Part shown: in pieces, positions 5,462-14,449 of the stretch
How the letters are laid out: each line of letters opens with the position of its first letter
How positions within the stretch are numbered: position 1 is the first letter of the stretch
From: Methylococcaceae bacterium
GTDB lineage: Bacteria; Pseudomonadota; Gammaproteobacteria; Methylococcales; Methylomonadaceae
Assembly (NCBI GenBank): GCA_030627265.1
Contig: DAOUSK010000011.1
Span: 1-38,651 of the forward strand
Reading direction: 5' to 3'
Length of the DNA: 38,651 bases
The notes under the pieces: model-generated
What the model saw: the letters and a program-made list of their open reading frames with translations, nothing else
The model's database searches: none
What the model was told of the DNA's origin: nothing
Translations under genes and position numbers: made by a program

Positions 5462-6919
5462 ATGAAGCAGTCATTACAGCTTCGAATGGGGCAGCAATTA
5501 TCAATGACCCCTCAGTTGCAGCAGGCGATTAAGCTGCTACAGCTTTCGACACTTGATTTGCAGCAAGAAATTCAGCAGGCTTTGGATTCCAACATGATGC
5601 TGGAAGTAGAGGAGGATGAGTCGTCATCAATGCAAAACCAGGAGTTTGTGGAAGAAAAAGTAGATATTAGTGATCAAATAAAAAGTGAAGGGTCGCAATC
5701 AGATATTCCCGATGAACTACCCATTGATACTTCGTGGGATGATGTGTTTGAATCAGTGCAAATGGGAGCGGCAGCGGCTCCTGCTGCAAATAATGATTTT
5801 CCTGATTTTGAGACGCAACGAAGTAAGGCAGAAAGTTTACAAGATCATTTAATGTGGCAAATGGAAATGCAACCGTTTACGGACAGGGATCATGTTTTGG
5901 CCGTTGCTATTATTGATGCGGTAGATGACGGTGGTTTTCTAAGTATGTCGGTAGATGATATTCATCAAGCTATGCTGTTGCAGTTAGATGAGCTAGAGCT
6001 TGCAGAAGTTTATACTACTTTGCACCGAGTGCAGCAGTTTGATCCGCCAGGTGTTGCGGCAGAAAATTTACAGGATAGTTTGCGGCTACAATTATTGCAG
6101 CTTGAGGATGCGACACCTTACAAAACAGAAGCGCTAGAGCTTGTTGAGCGGTTTTTGGATTTATTGGCTGCTCAAGATATTGCCAAATTAATGAAAAAAT
6201 TAGCAGTCTCTGAATCTAAGTTAGCTGATATTATTAGCTTGGTTCGTTCATTAGATCCAAGGCCGGGCGAAGCGATTGCGGTGAAAGTATCAGAGTATAT
6301 AGTACCCGACGTCTTTGTTAGTAAAGTAGAGGGTGAGTGGCGGGTGGAGTTGAATCCTGATATCTCACCACGGTTACGAGTGAATCCTTTTTATTCTGGT
6401 TTAATTAAACGAGCTGATAGCAGTAAAGATAACACCAGTATGAAGGAGCATTTACAAGAAGCACGCTGGTTTATTAAAAGTTTACATAGTAGAAATGATA
6501 CGTTATTACGGGTGGCAAAAAGTATTGTAGCAAAGCAAATAGAATTTCTTGAGCATGGGGCGATTGCAATGAAAGCTATGGTGCTAAGGGATGTTGCTGA
6601 AGAATTAGAATTGCATGAATCAACCATATCGAGAGTCACTACGCAGAAATATATGCACTTACCCAGTGGTGTTATTGAATTTAAGTATTTTTTCTCTAGT
6701 CATGTTTCAACTGTCAGTGGCGGAGAGTGTTCGGCCATTGCTATTAGAGCCTTTATAAAAGAATTAGTGAGTAATGAAAACCCAGTAAAGCCGTTGAGTG
6801 ATAATAAAATGGCGGAGTTACTAAAAGAGAAAGGAATAAATGTTGCGAGACGAACAATAGCGAAGTATCGTGATGCTAGTTCTATTCCATCATCAAGCCA
6901 AAGAAAGCGGCTTTTGTAA
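5462..6919 (+). CDS. rpoN: RNA polymerase sigma-54 factor
   Basis: Sigma-54, which directs RNA polymerase to -24/-12 promoters and needs an AAA+ activator. Region I is the Gln/Leu-rich N terminus (QQLSMTPQLQQAIKLLQLST, about 11-30) that contacts activators. An acidic region II follows (about 50-110). The core-binding domain is in the middle, and a helix-turn-helix lies near residues 378-395 (AEELELHESTISRVTTQKYM). The RpoN box ARRTIAKYRD is at 462-471 and recognises the -24 element. Length 485 is normal. GGAG at 5453-5456 gives a good ribosome site for this ATG. I found no -24/-12 promoter in the window that I would defend. Confidence 0.97.
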   Translation: MKQSLQLRMGQQLSMTPQLQQAIKLLQLSTLDLQQEIQQALDSNMMLEVEEDESSSMQNQEFVEEKVDISDQIKSEGSQSDIPDELPIDTSWDDVFESVQMGAAAAPAANNDFPDFETQRSKAESLQDHLMWQMEMQPFTDRDHVLAVAIIDAVDDGGFLSMSVDDIHQAMLLQLDELELAEVYTTLHRVQQFDPPGVAAENLQDSLRLQLLQLEDATPYKTEALELVERFLDLLAAQDIAKLMKKLAVSESKLADIISLVRSLDPRPGEAIAVKVSEYIVPDVFVSKVEGEWRVELNPDISPRLRVNPFYSGLIKRADSSKDNTSMKEHLQEARWFIKSLHSRNDTLLRVAKSIVAKQIEFLEHGAIAMKAMVLRDVAEELELHESTISRVTTQKYMHLPSGVIEFKYFFSSHVSTVSGGECSAIAIRAFIKELVSNENPVKPLSDNKMAELLKEKGINVARRTIAKYRDASSIPSSSQRKRLL

Positions 6920-7431: not shown

Positions 7432-8781
7432 ATGTCAGTAAGCATAGCGCAAGAGCAATCAGATCTACATTTAGAACAAATTATGAATGACCTTGACGGT
7501 AATGCGCTTTATGACGCAAGAGGGCATTTACACGGTTTATATCCTGCAGAAATCGCATTATTACTGAGTTCGCTCCCTATTGATTATAGAAACCAGATTT
7601 GGGCGATTATTTCACCCGAAATGATGGGGGATGTGTTAGTTATTTTACAAGGAGAGGTGCGTACAGGCTTGATAGAGCAGGCAACAGCGCAAAATTTAAT
7701 TGATGCAAGTAATGATTTAGATATTAATGACTTAGCTGTTTTAGTGGGTGAATTTCCTGCTATGGTGCGCGACAAAGTTCTAGAGAAAAAAGGCGATAGC
7801 CGGCTAGAGACGGCTTTATCATATGATGGTCGAACGGCGGCTGGTGTGATGGACTTAGGTGTCTTAACGATTCAGGCAGATTTAACCGTTGAGGCTGTTT
7901 TACAATTTTTGCGAAGTCAGCCTAAAATGGCAACAAATATGGATAGCTTGGTTGTTGTCGATAAAGTTGATCAATACCAAGGAATGATGCATGTATCAAC
8001 GCTATTGACAAGTGATACGCATCTTATTGTCTCAAATATTATGTCGACAGAAAAAGCAATTGCCTTGAATATGGCGGTAACAGATGTTGCTTTATTATTT
8101 GAGCAATATGATATTTTATCTGCTGCTGTTGTTGATGAGCAGGGCACTGTAAAAGGCCGTGTCTCTATTGATGATGTTTTGGATATTGTAAGAGATGAAG
8201 CTGAGCATGTGGTATTAAGCTCGGCAGGCCTTGATGAAGAGCATGATTTATTTGCACCTATTTTAGTCAGTGCTAGACGCCGAGCTGTTTGGTTGGGGGT
8301 TAATTTATTTACTGCATTTTTAGCCTCATGGGTGATTGGCTTATTTGAAGCAACAATCGCAGAAATTGTAGCGTTGGCTGTGTTAATGCCGATTGTAGCA
8401 AGTATGGGTGGAATTGCTGGAAGTCAAACCTTAACATTGGTTATTCGAGGGTTAGCACTGCATCAAATTAGCGCATCAAATACAATGAAATTCTTAGTGA
8501 AAGAAATAGCCATTGGAGCGGTTAATGGTGTTGTTTGGTCTATTGTAGTCGCATCGCTTGCAGCATTATGGTTTTCAAACTGGGGTCTTGGTTTCATGTT
8601 GGGTGGAGCGATGATTATTAATTTATGTTGCGCCTCTTTAGCCGGTGTATTAATTCCTCTATTTTTACAGAAAAAAGGAATTGATCCTGCATTGGCAGGT
8701 GGGGTACTGCTTACAACAGTTACCGATGTTATTGGTTTCATGTCATTCCTAGGATTGGCAACTATCTTTTTAACTAATTAA
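7432..8781 (+). CDS. mgtE: Magnesium channel/transporter MgtE
   Basis: Dimeric inner-membrane Mg2+ channel gated by cytoplasmic Mg2+ sensing. An N-terminal helical domain (about 10-125) is followed by a pair of CBS domains (about 130-255) and five membrane helices from about 285. The pore signature is seen as PIVASMGGIAGSQTLTLVIR (near 320-339), and the last helices carry GGVLLTTVTDVIGFMSFLGL with the conserved aspartate. Length 449 is normal. An AAGGA ribosome site precedes the ATG by 6 bases. A gene for an HvfA-like protein follows after 17 bases, so the two may be co-transcribed. In related genomes mgtE often follows the ptsN-rapZ-npr block, so its place here fits loss of that block. Confidence 0.93.
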   Translation: MSVSIAQEQSDLHLEQIMNDLDGNALYDARGHLHGLYPAEIALLLSSLPIDYRNQIWAIISPEMMGDVLVILQGEVRTGLIEQATAQNLIDASNDLDINDLAVLVGEFPAMVRDKVLEKKGDSRLETALSYDGRTAAGVMDLGVLTIQADLTVEAVLQFLRSQPKMATNMDSLVVVDKVDQYQGMMHVSTLLTSDTHLIVSNIMSTEKAIALNMAVTDVALLFEQYDILSAAVVDEQGTVKGRVSIDDVLDIVRDEAEHVVLSSAGLDEEHDLFAPILVSARRRAVWLGVNLFTAFLASWVIGLFEATIAEIVALAVLMPIVASMGGIAGSQTLTLVIRGLALHQISASNTMKFLVKEIAIGAVNGVVWSIVVASLAALWFSNWGLGFMLGGAMIINLCCASLAGVLIPLFLQKKGIDPALAGGVLLTTVTDVIGFMSFLGLATIFLTN

Positions 8782-8798
8782 TTAATATATAGGAAATA

Positions 8799-9164
8799 AT
8801 GATGATAATTAAAAAAGCACCTTTAGCGATTGCAGTCGGTACAACTTTGTTGGGTGGGTTGACGAGTGTGAATGCAGAAACAAAGATTGATTCAGTCCCA
8901 GAAAATAACCCCTTTTCTTTCAATGAGCTAGATAACGGTTATATGCAACTAGCAAAAGCAGACTCTAAAAAAGATGCTGTAAAAATGAAAGATGGCGCAT
9001 GTGGCGAAGGACAGTGTGGCGCTAGTATGATGCCTAAAGGCGCTTTAGAAAAAACAGTAGAAGGAAAATGTGCGGGAAATAAAGCGATGCCTAATGCTAA
9101 AAAAGTAATGAAGAAAGGCGGGGAAGGTAAATGTGGTGAAGGTAAGTGCGGTAATAATATGTAA
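8799..9164 (+). CDS. HvfA-like secreted EGKCG-repeat peptide precursor
   Basis: Low-complexity exported protein resembling the HvfA family, peptides whose EGKCG cysteines are modified by a DUF692/MNIO enzyme (HvfB) with HvfC and which bind copper. Visible parts: signal peptide 1-26 with likely cleavage after SVNA; the family-like segment NPFSFNELDNGYMQLA (37-52); then a Lys/Gly/Met-rich tail with five cysteines at 68, 73, 91, 112 and 117 in the contexts ACGEGQCG, EGKCAG and a terminal EGKCGEGKCG tandem. AGGA (8791-8794) is 4 bases from this ATG and 7 from a second ATG at 8802, either of which may be used. No hvfB, hvfC or DoxX gene is adjacent, which is unusual. Family assignment is from motif recognition; modification is inferred. 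Confidence 0.75.
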   Translation: MMIIKKAPLAIAVGTTLLGGLTSVNAETKIDSVPENNPFSFNELDNGYMQLAKADSKKDAVKMKDGACGEGQCGASMMPKGALEKTVEGKCAGNKAMPNAKKVMKKGGEGKCGEGKCGNNM

Positions 9165-9202: not shown

Positions 9203-9248
9203 AAAGCTCCTAAGTTGCAATATTTATTGGCAACTTAGGGGCTTTTTT
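9203..9248 (+). terminator. Intrinsic terminator after the HvfA-like gene
   Basis: AGCTCCTAAGTTGC (9205-9218) pairs with GCAACTTAGGGGCT (9230-9243) with a single G-T wobble, over an 11-base AT loop, and six T follow (9243-9248). This is a textbook rho-independent terminator that closes the mgtE unit and separates it from the dcw promoter. Confidence 0.9.
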
Positions 9249-9459
9249 ATTGCCTGAAACTTATTCGCAAGTAGTGCGGTTGAGTGGATTTTTTAGTGTT
9301 AGGGAAATCTTATATATAAAACCTAGAATTTACATTAACAAAAATAAATAAATAATTGATAGGCAATATTTTTTTAACCAGTAATTTATCGATATTTTTA
9401 GTGGTTTAAAAAAAACCTAAGTTATTGTAGGGGAAAGATAATTTAATCTGGGTAGCGCC
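9249..9459. other. AT-rich gene-free stretch before the dcw promoter
   Basis: No gene is visible on either strand. It is strongly AT-rich, with a long imperfect inverted repeat (TTTTTTTAACCA at 9369-9380 against TGGTTTAAAAAAAA at 9402-9415) centred near ATCGAT at 9389-9394. It could hold upstream promoter elements or a bent-DNA binding site for the dcw cluster. Confidence 0.4.
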
Positions 9460-9561: not shown

Positions 9562-10029
9562 ATGTTTCGAGGTGTAACCGCTATTAATTTGGATGCAAAA
9601 GGTCGTTTTGCGATTCCTACCCGTTACCGTGAAGAATTAAACGAATGCTGCGATAGTCAGATGGTCGTGACCATAGCCATTAATGAAAAAGGGGTTGGTG
9701 AGCCAGGGTGTTTATGGTTATATCCTTTGCCTGCGTGGGAAGAGCTGGAAAAATCGATTAGTAAATTACCCACAATGAATAAGATGGCTGGGAAGTTACG
9801 CCGGTTTGTTATTGGTAATGCAACAGAAGCTGTGATGGATAAACAAGGGCGTTTATTGCTATCAGATAAATTAAGAGAATTTACAGGGATGAATAAAAAA
9901 ATGATGTTAGTCGGGCAACTGAATAAATTTGAAATTTGGGATGAAGCAGCTTGGAAAGCAAAAGAAAATGCTTGGATGGAAAGTGATGATGATGAAGGTT
10001 TAGACGCCTTAGATAATATTTCATTCTAA
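9562..10029 (+). CDS. mraZ: Transcriptional regulator MraZ
   Basis: First gene of the dcw cluster; a ring-forming DNA-binding protein that represses its own operon. Two AbrB-like (SpoVT) half-domains are seen, each with the family motif: LDAKGRFAIPTRYR (10-23) and MDKQGRLLLSDKLR (92-105); the second has Ser where Pro is usual. A strong GGGGAGG ribosome site lies 7 bases before the ATG. Length 155 is normal. Three phased operator boxes stand about 40-65 bases upstream, consistent with autoregulation. rsmH follows after 11 bases. Confidence 0.95.
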   Translation: MFRGVTAINLDAKGRFAIPTRYREELNECCDSQMVVTIAINEKGVGEPGCLWLYPLPAWEELEKSISKLPTMNKMAGKLRRFVIGNATEAVMDKQGRLLLSDKLREFTGMNKKMMLVGQLNKFEIWDEAAWKAKENAWMESDDDEGLDALDNISF

Positions 10030-10040
10030 GGGCTAAAACG

Positions 10041-10964
10041 ATGCATTTACCTGTACTTTATAACGAAGCTTTACGTGAATTAAAGATAAAGCCAAATGGC
10101 ATTTATATTGACTGTACCTTTGGGCGAGGCGGTCACAGTAATGGCATACTTAAACAATTAGGCCCTGAAGGGAAGTTACTCTCATTGGACAGAGATAGGG
10201 ATGCAATTGAATCTGATTTTGCACAGGAAATGCTTCAAGATTCACGATTTGAACTAGAGCACTGCTGTTTTTCTAGGTTACAAGAAGTGATTGAAAATAG
10301 AGGCTGGTTGGGGAAAGTTGATGGCATCTTAATGGATTTTGGTGTGTCATCACCTCAATTAGATGATGCAGCAAGAGGTTTTAGTTTTATGCGAGATGGC
10401 CCGTTAGATATGCGAATGGATTGCACGACTGGGTTATCGGCAGCGGAATGGTTGGCAACAGTTTCTGAAAAAGATTTGGTGCAAGTATTGTTTGACTATG
10501 GTGAAGAGAAATTTGCGCGGCGTATTGCGAATGCTGTTGTTACACAGAGATTAGAGACAAAGTTGGAAACAACAAAGCAGTTTTCTGATTTGGTGGTAGA
10601 AGCAATTCCTTACAAAGAAAAGCATAAGCACCCAGCGACACGAACTTTTCAAGCTGTCAGAATTGCAGTTAATCGTGAGTTAGATGAAATAAAGTCGGTG
10701 TTAGAGCAAGCAGTTAATGTTTTAAAGCCTGAGGGCAGAATGGCGGTTATTTCATTCCATTCCCTAGAAGATCGAATAGCTAAGCGTTTTATTCGAGATG
10801 AATCGCGAGGGCGGTATACGGATTCAAAGTTACCTATGTTAGCAGAGCAGGAGGCATTATTACGTTTAAAAAAATGTGGTAAAGCGATTAAGTCCGGGCA
10901 AGAGGAGTTAAACGAAAATCCAAGAGCGCGTAGTGCGGTTATGCGTGTAGCAGAGCGTAAATAG
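10041..10964 (+). CDS. rsmH: 16S rRNA (cytosine(1402)-N4)-methyltransferase
   Basis: S-adenosylmethionine-dependent enzyme that methylates N4 of C1402 in the 16S rRNA P site. The SAM-binding loop is DCTFGRGGHSNGIL (24-37); the second motif is DGILMDFGVSSPQLD (near 95-109), with GFSFMRDGPLDMRMD just after; the C-terminal pattern EGRMAVISFHSLEDRIAKRF is family-specific. At 307 residues it matches other RsmH (formerly MraW). It lies between mraZ and ftsL as in nearly all dcw clusters. Confidence 0.97.
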   Translation: MHLPVLYNEALRELKIKPNGIYIDCTFGRGGHSNGILKQLGPEGKLLSLDRDRDAIESDFAQEMLQDSRFELEHCCFSRLQEVIENRGWLGKVDGILMDFGVSSPQLDDAARGFSFMRDGPLDMRMDCTTGLSAAEWLATVSEKDLVQVLFDYGEEKFARRIANAVVTQRLETKLETTKQFSDLVVEAIPYKEKHKHPATRTFQAVRIAVNRELDEIKSVLEQAVNVLKPEGRMAVISFHSLEDRIAKRFIRDESRGRYTDSKLPMLAEQEALLRLKKCGKAIKSGQEELNENPRARSAVMRVAERK

Positions 10965-10969
10965 CCTGA

Positions 10970-11233
10970 ATGAACAAATTGTTGATTTCGGCATTATTGT
11001 TACTTTTTATGTGCTCAGGTTTAAGTGTTATTTATAGTAAGTATGAGTCACGTAAAGTATTTATTGAAATACAACAAGCAAAGCAAGTTTTAGACCAGCT
11101 AGAAGTAAGTTGGGGACGTTTAGTGTTAGAAAAAAAAATGCTTTCAGGCCATAATCGGGTGGAAAAAATTGCGCGTAAAAAGATGAAATTAATGTCATTA
11201 GATAGGCAGGCAATTGTTTATATAAAACTGTAA
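10970..11233 (+). CDS. ftsL: Cell division protein FtsL
   Basis: Small bitopic divisome protein that forms a complex with FtsQ and FtsB and activates FtsWI. One membrane segment (about 4-23) is followed by a coiled coil (about 30-60) and the conserved tail RVEKIARKKMKLMSLDRQ. At 87 residues it is slightly short compared with E. coli FtsL (121) because the cytoplasmic N terminus is minimal, as in several other gammaproteobacteria. It sits 5 bases after rsmH and 2 bases before ftsI. Confidence 0.9.
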   Translation: MNKLLISALLLLFMCSGLSVIYSKYESRKVFIEIQQAKQVLDQLEVSWGRLVLEKKMLSGHNRVEKIARKKMKLMSLDRQAIVYIKL

Positions 11234-11235
11234 TT

Positions 11236-12999
11236 ATGCTGAAACCAAAGTTAAAAAAACAAAACTTTTCAGCAAGAAGAAAGTGGCTGTATTTCATCAT
11301 GTTTTTGGCTATGCTGGCATTAATTATTAGAGCGGTGCATTTACAGATATTTGATATTGATTTTTTGCAAAAGCAAGCAAGAAGTCGGCATATTAGTAAG
11401 GTGAAAATTTCTGCCTATAGAGGGCAGATTAAAGATAAAAATGGTGAAAGTTTAGCTGTCAGTGCGCCTGTTGAGTCTATTTGGGTTAACCCTCAATATT
11501 GTTCTTTCTCTAAAAAGGAAGAAAAAAAAGAGACTAGAGCGAGCAAAAAAATTAAAGCAGATTGTGCGCGATTAGATAGAGCGACAAAAAGAAAAGTTGC
11601 ACAAATTTTAGGAATAGCCAATAAAAAAGTTGAAAGGGCATTTAATGCCAATAGTAAACGCAAGTTTGTCTATTTAAAACGGCGAGTAACGCCCGGTATA
11701 GCAAATAAAATAAAAACATTAAATTTACCTGGTGTTGGTTTTATCAGGGAATTTAAGCGGTTTTATCCAACGGGTGAAGTAACATCTCATTTGTTAGGTT
11801 TTACTAATATAGATGATAGAGGGCAAGAAGGTTTAGAGCTGATGTATGACAGCCAGTTAAATGGTGTTGCAGGCAGTAAATTAGTAATACGGGATGGTAA
11901 GCGACGTGTTATTGAAGAGCAGAATATTGAAAGTATTAAAGAGCCAGAAGCTGGGCAAGATATAGAGTTAAGTATAGATCAGCGCTTACAGTATTTAGCG
12001 TATAGAGAATTAAAGGCGGGCGTAAGTCGGCATAAAGCAAAGTCAGCCTCCTTGGTGATTTTGGAAGCGAAAACTGGGAATATTTTAGCGGTTGTTAATC
12101 AGCCAGCATTTAATCCGAATACGCGGCGGCATTTAACAATAGAGCGTTATAAAAATAGAGCGATTACAGATGTTTTTGAGCCAGGGTCAACGATGAAACC
12201 TTTGGTTGCGGCGGCGGCACTTGATGGCGGTTTTATTAAGCGTCGGCAGCTGTATTCAACTAAAGATTATAAGATTGGTCGTAACTGGGTTCGAGATGGA
12301 CACAGGTACGGCATTTTAAGTTTAAGTAATGTGCTAAAAAAATCGAGCAATGTGGCGGCAAGTAAAATTGCTTTATCAATGCCAGCAGATTATTTTTGGC
12401 GTTTTTATCATGATTTAGGTTTTGGTGTCTCGGCGGCTGTTGGTTTCCCTGGGGAAGCTAGTGGTGTTTTGCCTGAGTACGATGGCTGGAGTAAATTTGA
12501 GCAAGCGACGTTATCATTTGGGTATCGCTTATCGATGTCAGTTTTGCAATTAGCTCGGTCTTATACGGCTTTAGCGGATGACGGCATACTACATTCCGTC
12601 AGTTTACTGAAGCGAGAGAAAGATGAGTATGCAGTACGTGTGTTATCGGCTAAGACAGCTAGAACCGTACGGAAAATGATTGAAAAAGTGGTCCATAAAG
12701 ATGGCACAGCTTATCAAGCAAGAATTGATGGTTACCGGGTTGCAGGTAAAACCGGAACGGTAAAAAAAGCTAGTAAAGGTGGTTATGGAAGTGAATACCT
12801 TTCTGTTTTTGTCGGGATGGCTCCTGCAAGTGATCCAGAGTTAGTGATTGCTGTTTTGGTTGACACGCCACAAGCGGGGCAATATTACGGTGGCCAAGTT
12901 GCAGCACCTATTTTTTCTAAAGTGATGGCAGGGGCTCTAAGGGTGTTGAATATAGCGCCAGATGAAGAGAAAACGATGAATGTTTTATTAAAAAAATAA
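11236..12999 (+). CDS. ftsI: Septal peptidoglycan transpeptidase FtsI (PBP3)
   Basis: Class B penicillin-binding protein that crosslinks septal peptidoglycan with FtsW. N-terminal membrane segment about 17-34; pedestal domain to about 240; transpeptidase domain with the three active-site motifs STMK (318-321, nucleophile S318), SSN (370-372) and KTGT (505-508). Length 587 is close to E. coli (588). Odd point: after IWVNPQ (residues 82-87) there is a Lys/Glu-rich insertion of about 15 residues flanked by Cys89 and Cys110, which E. coli FtsI lacks. The C terminus ends soon after the domain, without a long tail. ftsL precedes by 2 bases and murE follows by 4. Confidence 0.97.
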   Translation: MLKPKLKKQNFSARRKWLYFIMFLAMLALIIRAVHLQIFDIDFLQKQARSRHISKVKISAYRGQIKDKNGESLAVSAPVESIWVNPQYCSFSKKEEKKETRASKKIKADCARLDRATKRKVAQILGIANKKVERAFNANSKRKFVYLKRRVTPGIANKIKTLNLPGVGFIREFKRFYPTGEVTSHLLGFTNIDDRGQEGLELMYDSQLNGVAGSKLVIRDGKRRVIEEQNIESIKEPEAGQDIELSIDQRLQYLAYRELKAGVSRHKAKSASLVILEAKTGNILAVVNQPAFNPNTRRHLTIERYKNRAITDVFEPGSTMKPLVAAAALDGGFIKRRQLYSTKDYKIGRNWVRDGHRYGILSLSNVLKKSSNVAASKIALSMPADYFWRFYHDLGFGVSAAVGFPGEASGVLPEYDGWSKFEQATLSFGYRLSMSVLQLARSYTALADDGILHSVSLLKREKDEYAVRVLSAKTARTVRKMIEKVVHKDGTAYQARIDGYRVAGKTGTVKKASKGGYGSEYLSVFVGMAPASDPELVIAVLVDTPQAGQYYGGQVAAPIFSKVMAGALRVLNIAPDEEKTMNVLLKK

Positions 13000-13003
13000 G
13001 CTT

Positions 13004-14449
13004 ATGTGGCTATCAAAATTACTGAAAGATTTAGCAAAAGTTGAAAATGATGTTGAATTTTTTCAAATTGAACTCGATAGCCGCCGTATAAAAAAAGGTG
13101 ATGTTTTTTTTGCGCTAGCAGGCAGTCAACAGCATGGAATGCACTATGCAGAAGATGTTATTGAACAAGGTGTTGTTGCTATTGTTTATGATCCCGCGCA
13201 GGGGGGGCAAGCGGTAGCTAAGAAGTTAGGCTTTAAATGTTTAATTGCGATTGAAGGATTAAATAAAAAATTAGGGCAGATAGCCGGTCGTTTTTATAAG
13301 GAGCCAGCAGAAAACCTGCAAGTAATTGGTATTACAGGGACGAATGGGAAAACATCATGCAGTCAATTTTTGGCTCAGATGATGGAGTCGACTGCGGTGA
13401 TAGGTACATTAGGTTCAGGCTTGTATGGCGATTTACAAGTGTCTAACAATACAACGCCAAATGCATTTGATTTACAAAAGCTTTTAGCGAGGTTTGTTAA
13501 GCAAGGCATAAAGAATGTTGCGATGGAGGTGTCATCGCATGGGCTAGAGCAAGGCAGAGTGGAAGCCGTTAATTTTTCAGGTGCTGTCTTTAATAATTTG
13601 AGCCGTGATCATTTAGATTATCACGGCAACATGGAAAATTACTTCCAAGCTAAAAATCAGCTATTTAAATGGCCCAGTTTGAAGTTTGTGGTATTAAATG
13701 CGGACGATGAGTATTCGGCGCGAATTAAATTAGGGCTTAATGCACAGGTTCAAGTATTAAGTTATAGCTTGCTTGTTGAAAGCGATGAAAATTTAGTCGC
13801 AAAAAATATTCAATATACAACAGAGGGTATTGTTTGTGATGTGTTTTGGAATGAACAACATGCAGCATTAAATGTTGCTTTATTGGGCGAGTTTAATTTG
13901 CAAAATATTTTGGCGGCAGTTGCTGTTTTATTAATGCAAGGTGAGTCATTAAAAACCAGTGTTTTAGCCGCAAGTAAAGTGAAGCCAATTATTGGCAGAA
14001 TGGAATGTTTCAAAGCTAAAAATGAGGCATTGATTATTGTGGATTATGCGCATACGCCGGATGCCTTGGAAAAAGTATTAACGACTTTAAGGCAACATTG
14101 TAATCGACAATTAAAAGTGGTTTTTGGTTGTGGTGGTAACCGAGATACAGGTAAGCGTAGTCAGATGGGGCGTATTGCAGCACAGTTAGCTGATGAGATG
14201 ATTGTTACCGATGATAATCCGCGATTTGAAAGTAGTCAGTTGATTATTGATGAAATTGTCATGGGTTTGGATATGCAAAAAATAAGTTGTATTTCCGATA
14301 GAGAAAGCGCAATTAAGCAAACAATAGCAAACGCCGACAAGGGCGATATTGTTTTAATTGCTGGTAAAGGGCATGAAGAATACCAAGAGGTTAACGGTGT
14401 TAAGACAGCGTTTAGTGATAGAGCTTTAGTGCAGGAATTAATTAGTTAA
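13004..14449 (+). CDS. murE: UDP-MurNAc-L-Ala-D-Glu:meso-DAP ligase
   Basis: Cytoplasmic Mur ligase adding the third stem-peptide residue. ATP-binding loop GTNGKTS (112-118, K116); central domain motif EVSSHGL; the DNPR motif (404-407) that recognises meso-diaminopimelate rather than lysine is present, so the peptidoglycan is the Gram-negative DAP type. The C-terminal GKGHEEYQE pattern is also typical. Length 481 is a little short at the N terminus but complete. Its stop overlaps the murF start (TAATG). A seven-G run at 13201-13207 lies inside the coding region in frame. Confidence 0.97.
   Translation: MWLSKLLKDLAKVENDVEFFQIELDSRRIKKGDVFFALAGSQQHGMHYAEDVIEQGVVAIVYDPAQGGQAVAKKLGFKCLIAIEGLNKKLGQIAGRFYKEPAENLQVIGITGTNGKTSCSQFLAQMMESTAVIGTLGSGLYGDLQVSNNTTPNAFDLQKLLARFVKQGIKNVAMEVSSHGLEQGRVEAVNFSGAVFNNLSRDHLDYHGNMENYFQAKNQLFKWPSLKFVVLNADDEYSARIKLGLNAQVQVLSYSLLVESDENLVAKNIQYTTEGIVCDVFWNEQHAALNVALLGEFNLQNILAAVAVLLMQGESLKTSVLAASKVKPIIGRMECFKAKNEALIIVDYAHTPDALEKVLTTLRQHCNRQLKVVFGCGGNRDTGKRSQMGRIAAQLADEMIVTDDNPRFESSQLIIDEIVMGLDMQKISCISDRESAIKQTIANADKGDIVLIAGKGHEEYQEVNGVKTAFSDRALVQELIS

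Follow-up and report, generated by a model that had tools for sequence, protein, structure and literature searches.

A precursor peptide gene of the HvfA family located directly after mgtE in a Methylococcaceae bacterium, apart from its probable modifying enzymes

The closest described relatives of the peptide reported here are the EGKCG-type precursors HvfA/oxazolin, the captophorins and Buf_EGKCG. The peptide shares with them a signal-peptide-like N-terminus, EGKCG-like Cys repeats and the NF050137 domain, as well as the presence of HvfB, HvfC and HvfX in its genome, whereas it differs in having no enzyme genes nearby, in scoring below the HvfA equivalog cut-off, and in combining few Cys with a conserved EGxCAGN element. 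Adjacency to an MNIO gene is usual for such precursors, yet not universal, since stand-alone precursor genes are already described in the passages of PMC12452194 considered here, according to which an MNIO encoded at another locus may modify them, or none; among fully assembled genomes with EGKCG precursors, the same passages count 67 of 2583 without an MNIO. Like the stand-alone bufferin-type precursors of these passages, the gene described here is located away from the MNIO, which is encoded elsewhere in the genome; unlike them, it has a conserved position after mgtE in one genus. Among the matches listed from the open-licence PMC literature, none dealt with a precursor linked to mgtE, and the term "magnesium" gave no in-text matches in PMC12452194 and PMC13097082, nor "mgtE" in PMC13419390. 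Relative to the literature matches listed, the conserved placement behind mgtE and a family-wide, unlinked EGxCAGN subfamily would be new, neither having been seen in print.

The window analyzed was a stretch of 38,651 nucleotides (contig C114) from a draft assembly of 2.3 Mb in 182 contigs, 91.5% complete; features of the locus are listed in Table 1. The ORF proposed in the first-pass annotation was confirmed, with a length of 121 aa and a full-length mass of 12,530 Da. Besides the signal-like start and the five Cys, the peptide contains the segment NPFSFNELDNGY, with NPFSF at residues 37-41 and GY at residues 47-48. The Cys are found in the contexts DGACGE (C68), EGQCGA (C73), EGKCAG (C91), EGKCGE (C112) and EGKCGN (C117), the exact EGKCG context being restricted to C112 and C117, and C91 being solitary. 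A Pfam scan of the peptide retrieved no family, and an AlphaFold2 model had a mean pLDDT of 47.8 and a pTM of 0.11, with no secondary structure reported.

Table 1. Features of the mgtE-peptide locus, in window positions.
Feature	Position	Strand	Basis
mgtE magnesium transporter gene, 449 aa, directly upstream of the peptide gene	7432..8781	+	TIGR00400, PF01769, PF03448, PF00571
EGKCG-type (HvfA-family) precursor peptide gene	8799..9164	+	ORF, profile match, alignment, five Cys
Putative Sec signal peptide, residues 1-26, cleavage after VNA	8799..8876	+	by eye
Conserved post-signal segment NPFSFNELDNGYMQLAK, putative recognition segment, common to MNIO-linked precursors	8907..8957	+	alignment, leader profile
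Core region with Cys sites C68, C73, C91, C112 and C117	9000..9152	+	alignment
Terminator-like hairpin and T run, closing the unit	9208..9249	+	-15.1 kcal/mol, z -4.2 (200 shuffles)

The peptide passed the NCBIfam HvfA-family domain NF050137 (23.5 bits vs. a cut-off of 19.5; 21.2 bits, also above the cut-off, in the whole-genome scan) and failed the HvfA equivalog NF050188 (36.8 bits vs. a curated cut-off of 95). The enzyme-linked HvfA of the same genome also fails the latter (54.4 bits vs. 95), so that linked and unlinked forms are not told apart by this cut-off in the present case. The peptide is thus filed with the HvfA family, and not as an HvfA equivalog. The relationship with HvfA claimed in the first-pass annotation was therefore sustained at the level of the family domain, and not at that of the equivalog; it is supported by the NF050137 score, by the leader profile described below, and by the matches of the relatives, as each of the two models was matched by 19 of 21 aligned sequences at E <= 0.001. 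Moreover, the NF050137 score, the orthologues in the genus and the low dN/dS values indicate that the ORF is more than a chance reading frame.

A leader profile based on six MNIO-linked precursors recovered every one of the 22 unlinked leaders that were tested (E <= 1.3e-12), and the leader of the window peptide matched with an E value of 7.4e-13, compared to a best value of 0.22 among 352 general control ORFs. A second control was based on 148 ORFs with a signal-like start (defined by a crude rule), of which 54 precursor-like ones were set aside; among the resulting 94, three matched at E <= 1.3e-13 and were plainly further precursors missed by the filter, and the best value in the remaining 91 was 0.057. 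Residues N37, P38, F39, G47 and Y48 were invariant in the window peptide, the HvfA of its own genome, a sucCD-linked precursor and five linked precursors from other genomes. Such conservation would be expected if one partner protein recognised them all, but common descent could also account for it. According to a passage of a preprint (PMC13419390), HvfBC acts chiefly on HvfA of full length, Sec signal included. The leader should not be read too strictly residue by residue, given that Ala substitutions introduced one at a time ahead of the core of the FonA minimal substrate were all tolerated, as stated in the passage of PMC13097082 considered.

The first-pass annotation had pointed out the lack of MNIO-type neighbours and had suggested a genome search for hvfB and hvfC. 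The former is correct locally: the neighbours scanned were lptB, rpoN, hpf, mgtE, mraZ, rsmH, an FtsI-like gene (below its curated cut-offs) and murE, and HvfB, HvfC and HvfX were not found among them. The search, in turn, detected both genes in the same assembly. A single MNIO (357 bits, PF05114 search) is encoded on contig C143, followed directly by the only DUF2063 protein (PF09836 search), within a cluster ordered as ECF sigma, anti-sigma, HvfX, HvfA (171 aa), HvfB and HvfC, with equivalog scores of 445.2 bits for HvfB (cut-off 360), 283.3 for HvfC (142) and 231.9 for HvfX (80). MNIO and DUF2063 genes are thus present in the genome and do not adjoin the peptide gene, which is an "orphan" only locally, with a complete enzyme cluster on another contig. 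The 171-aa HvfA resembles the peptide both in the leader segment and in the repeats of the core (45% identity), and differs from it in being longer, with more Cys, enzyme-linked, part of a cluster that starts with an ECF sigma gene, and devoid of the CAGN element. The nine NF050137 matches in the genome (E <= 1) were confined to three precursor genes, the third one encoding an EGKCG-type precursor of 241 aa directly downstream of sucCD (L008:5517-6242, contig C129). A similar sucCD-linked precursor was observed in genome G005 (L035), the two forming another unlinked type of precursor within the genus. In the genome analyzed, three precursors thus stand against a single detected HvfBC pair. A weak match on contig C54 (E 0.2), located among pilus-type genes as judged by eye, was dropped.

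The gene upstream of the peptide was assigned to mgtE with 248 bits for TIGR00400 (cut-off 232.75), and 17 nt separate its stop from the start of the peptide gene, which is accompanied by an AGGAA element resembling a ribosome-binding site. The peptide gene directly follows mgtE in 16 of the 18 genomes of the genus, its own included; of the remaining two, one lacked any match to mgtE, and the matches in the other were limited to 47% and 34% identity. The gap between both genes, where computable (15 of the 16 loci), ranged from 17 to 70 nt. The earlier placement of the peptide in the mgtE transcription unit gains support from these short gaps and from the downstream hairpin, which together suggest that both genes are co-transcribed. 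A simple terminator scan found no terminators, the hairpin at 9208-9249 being unlisted. Between positions 6900 and 9700, no magnesium riboswitch or other known RNA was detected (one sub-threshold match on the opposite strand), and the sigma-70 promoter scan of the same interval was uninformative, since it gave 10 sites vs. 9.5 in shuffled sequences. Downstream of the peptide, mraZ (the next gene), rsmH, the FtsI-like gene and murE (9562-14449) constitute the start of a cell-wall/division cluster. In the draft genome G010 (L016), mgtE is apparently split over two frames.

Values of dN/dS ranged from 0.056 to 0.185 in 10 chosen pairs from the 16 sequences of the genus (some dS values being saturated, up to 1.75), and the peptide gene is under purifying selection. 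Within these 16 sequences C68, C73, C91 and C117 were invariant and C112 was conserved in 14, two members (L010 and L024) having four Cys only. The latter, together with the variant contexts ACGEGQCG and EGKCAG, could be taken to indicate that the precursor is a remnant in decay, its motifs being degraded; given the low dN/dS, the near-invariance of the Cys and the conservation of EGxCAGN in the subfamily, such decay is highly improbable.

The EGxCAGN element was invariant in all 21 aligned subfamily members (x being K in 19 of them). Among five aligned MNIO-linked precursors of other genera, CAG was found in all, CAGN in three and EGKCAG in two; the linked HvfA of the own genome has no CAG variant. 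In the part of the FonBC substrate scan consulted (PMC13097082), Ala after Cys was accepted in both repeats; at the Lys position Ala, Arg and Thr were accepted, Phe and Glu severely impaired modification, and Pro was not tolerated, Gln (cf. EGQCG) being unnamed in that passage. Based on the invariance of EGxCAGN, the occurrence of CAG in linked precursors and the tolerance of FonBC to Ala, C91 is probably a normal site, rather than the altered modification site that EGKCAG had been suggested to represent. As a FonA substrate with a single repeat was left unmodified, according to the same part of PMC13097082, the solitary C91 is nevertheless left in some doubt.

Outside the genus, mgtE loci from 14 genomes of sister genera, examined with approximately 1.5 kb on each side, did not contain the peptide. 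A context survey of 40 of the 52 strong matches outside the genus showed PPK2, Slp, HerA-type, RecQ-type, def and iscA-type, ctaA, CNNM and ECF sigma genes as neighbours, among others. Since sister genera place their relatives elsewhere, the link with mgtE is a conserved arrangement seen only in the own genus. The mgtE location may well be an accident of gene movement, lending a promoter without metal meaning, as the variety of neighbours in other genera would suggest; this reading, to which we give somewhat better than even credence, is compatible with modification in trans, and is countered by the retention of the arrangement, with short gaps, across the genus. In two loci (L139 and L150, from genomes G141 and G023), unlinked peptide genes are followed immediately by a gene homologous to the ECF sigma gene at the head of the hvf cluster in the genome analyzed here, which suggests a regulon shared with that cluster. 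In two of the ten loci of genus g9 (L130 and L138, from G025 and G141), a CNNM/CorC-type gene, encoding another putative magnesium transporter, converges on the peptide gene, possibly by coincidence.

Strong subfamily matches (E <= 3.9e-26) amounted to 69, with an MNIO elsewhere in the genome for 60, within 3 kb for five, and none found for four; weaker matches, which were not counted, include MNIO-linked precursors (e.g. on C4 of G070), so that a different cut would shift the proportion of unlinked ones. "Elsewhere" here covers any MNIO more than 3 kb away or on a different contig, and links across draft contig ends would escape this definition; several of the 69 lie near contig ends, and two of them (G129 C40 and G208) contain an in-frame stop. 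Given that an MNIO is nearly universal among the relatives (57 of 61 genomes), the 60 matches weigh little as evidence, and the five MNIO-adjoining ones indicate that the same peptide type can neighbour an MNIO gene. The peptide adjoins an MNIO gene in genera g39 and g35. In four genomes carrying the peptide (G013, G023, G075 and G151, all drafts) an MNIO was not found, due to either assembly gaps or unmodified use.

The first-pass annotation had left two alternatives, modification in trans or an unmodified role linked to magnesium. The former is favoured because the assembly includes a complete HvfX-HvfA-HvfB-HvfC cluster on a different contig; only co-location with mgtE was found for the latter. 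In that case the peptide would be exported unmodified, its thiols and charged repeats buffering metals, possibly in connection with the magnesium physiology of MgtE. Such a role would agree with the adjacency kept in 16 of 18 genomes and with the four peptide-carrying drafts without a detected MNIO, but the presence of HvfB and HvfC in the genome, the leader and core held in common with enzyme-linked precursors, and the absence of the peptide from the mgtE loci of the sister genera make it unlikely.

The only named relative retrieved in the contig scan belongs to a methane-oxidising endosymbiont of Gigantopelta aegis. Of 10 genomes tested for PF02461, which we take to be the pMMO/AMO subunit family, 9 gave a match, the exception being the own draft assembly, where the absence of a match probably reflects a gap. 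Presumably, the family consists of methanotrophs beyond this endosymbiont. Based on the endosymbiont and on the distribution of PF02461, copper supply and excess probably matter in the family.

Taken together, we consider it likely that the gene encodes an exported copper peptide of the HvfA family, modified in trans by the HvfBC of its own genome and with expression driven from mgtE. The product would be an exported precursor of the EGKCG or "captophorin" type, synthesised together with MgtE from a promoter supplied by the mgtE operon, which would make its expression level probably independent of the ECF sigma heading the main cluster. HvfB-HvfC from the other contig would most likely bind the signal peptide and the NPF...GY segment in the cytoplasm and turn Cys into 5-thiooxazoles (approximately -4 Da each, at most approximately -20 Da), after which the peptide would be exported by Sec, chelating excess copper in the periplasm alongside the two other precursors. 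What the analysis establishes is the existence and conservation of the gene, a leader in common with linked precursors, enzymes encoded in the same genome and an operon-like layout; modification in trans, copper binding, co-transcription and mode of expression are proposed. A further-reaching reading, with one enzyme pair serving three precursors under three controls, and a genus-specific rewiring to mgtE, away from the sigma-factor control of the main cluster, through which magnesium supply would set basal periplasmic copper buffering, seems quite improbable. If the peptide is modified in trans, one HvfBC pair would serve several scattered precursors, a question posed as open in the passages of PMC12452194 considered, and the peptide would allow testing which leader and core features are sufficient for recognition, in a group largely dependent on a copper enzyme, pMMO.
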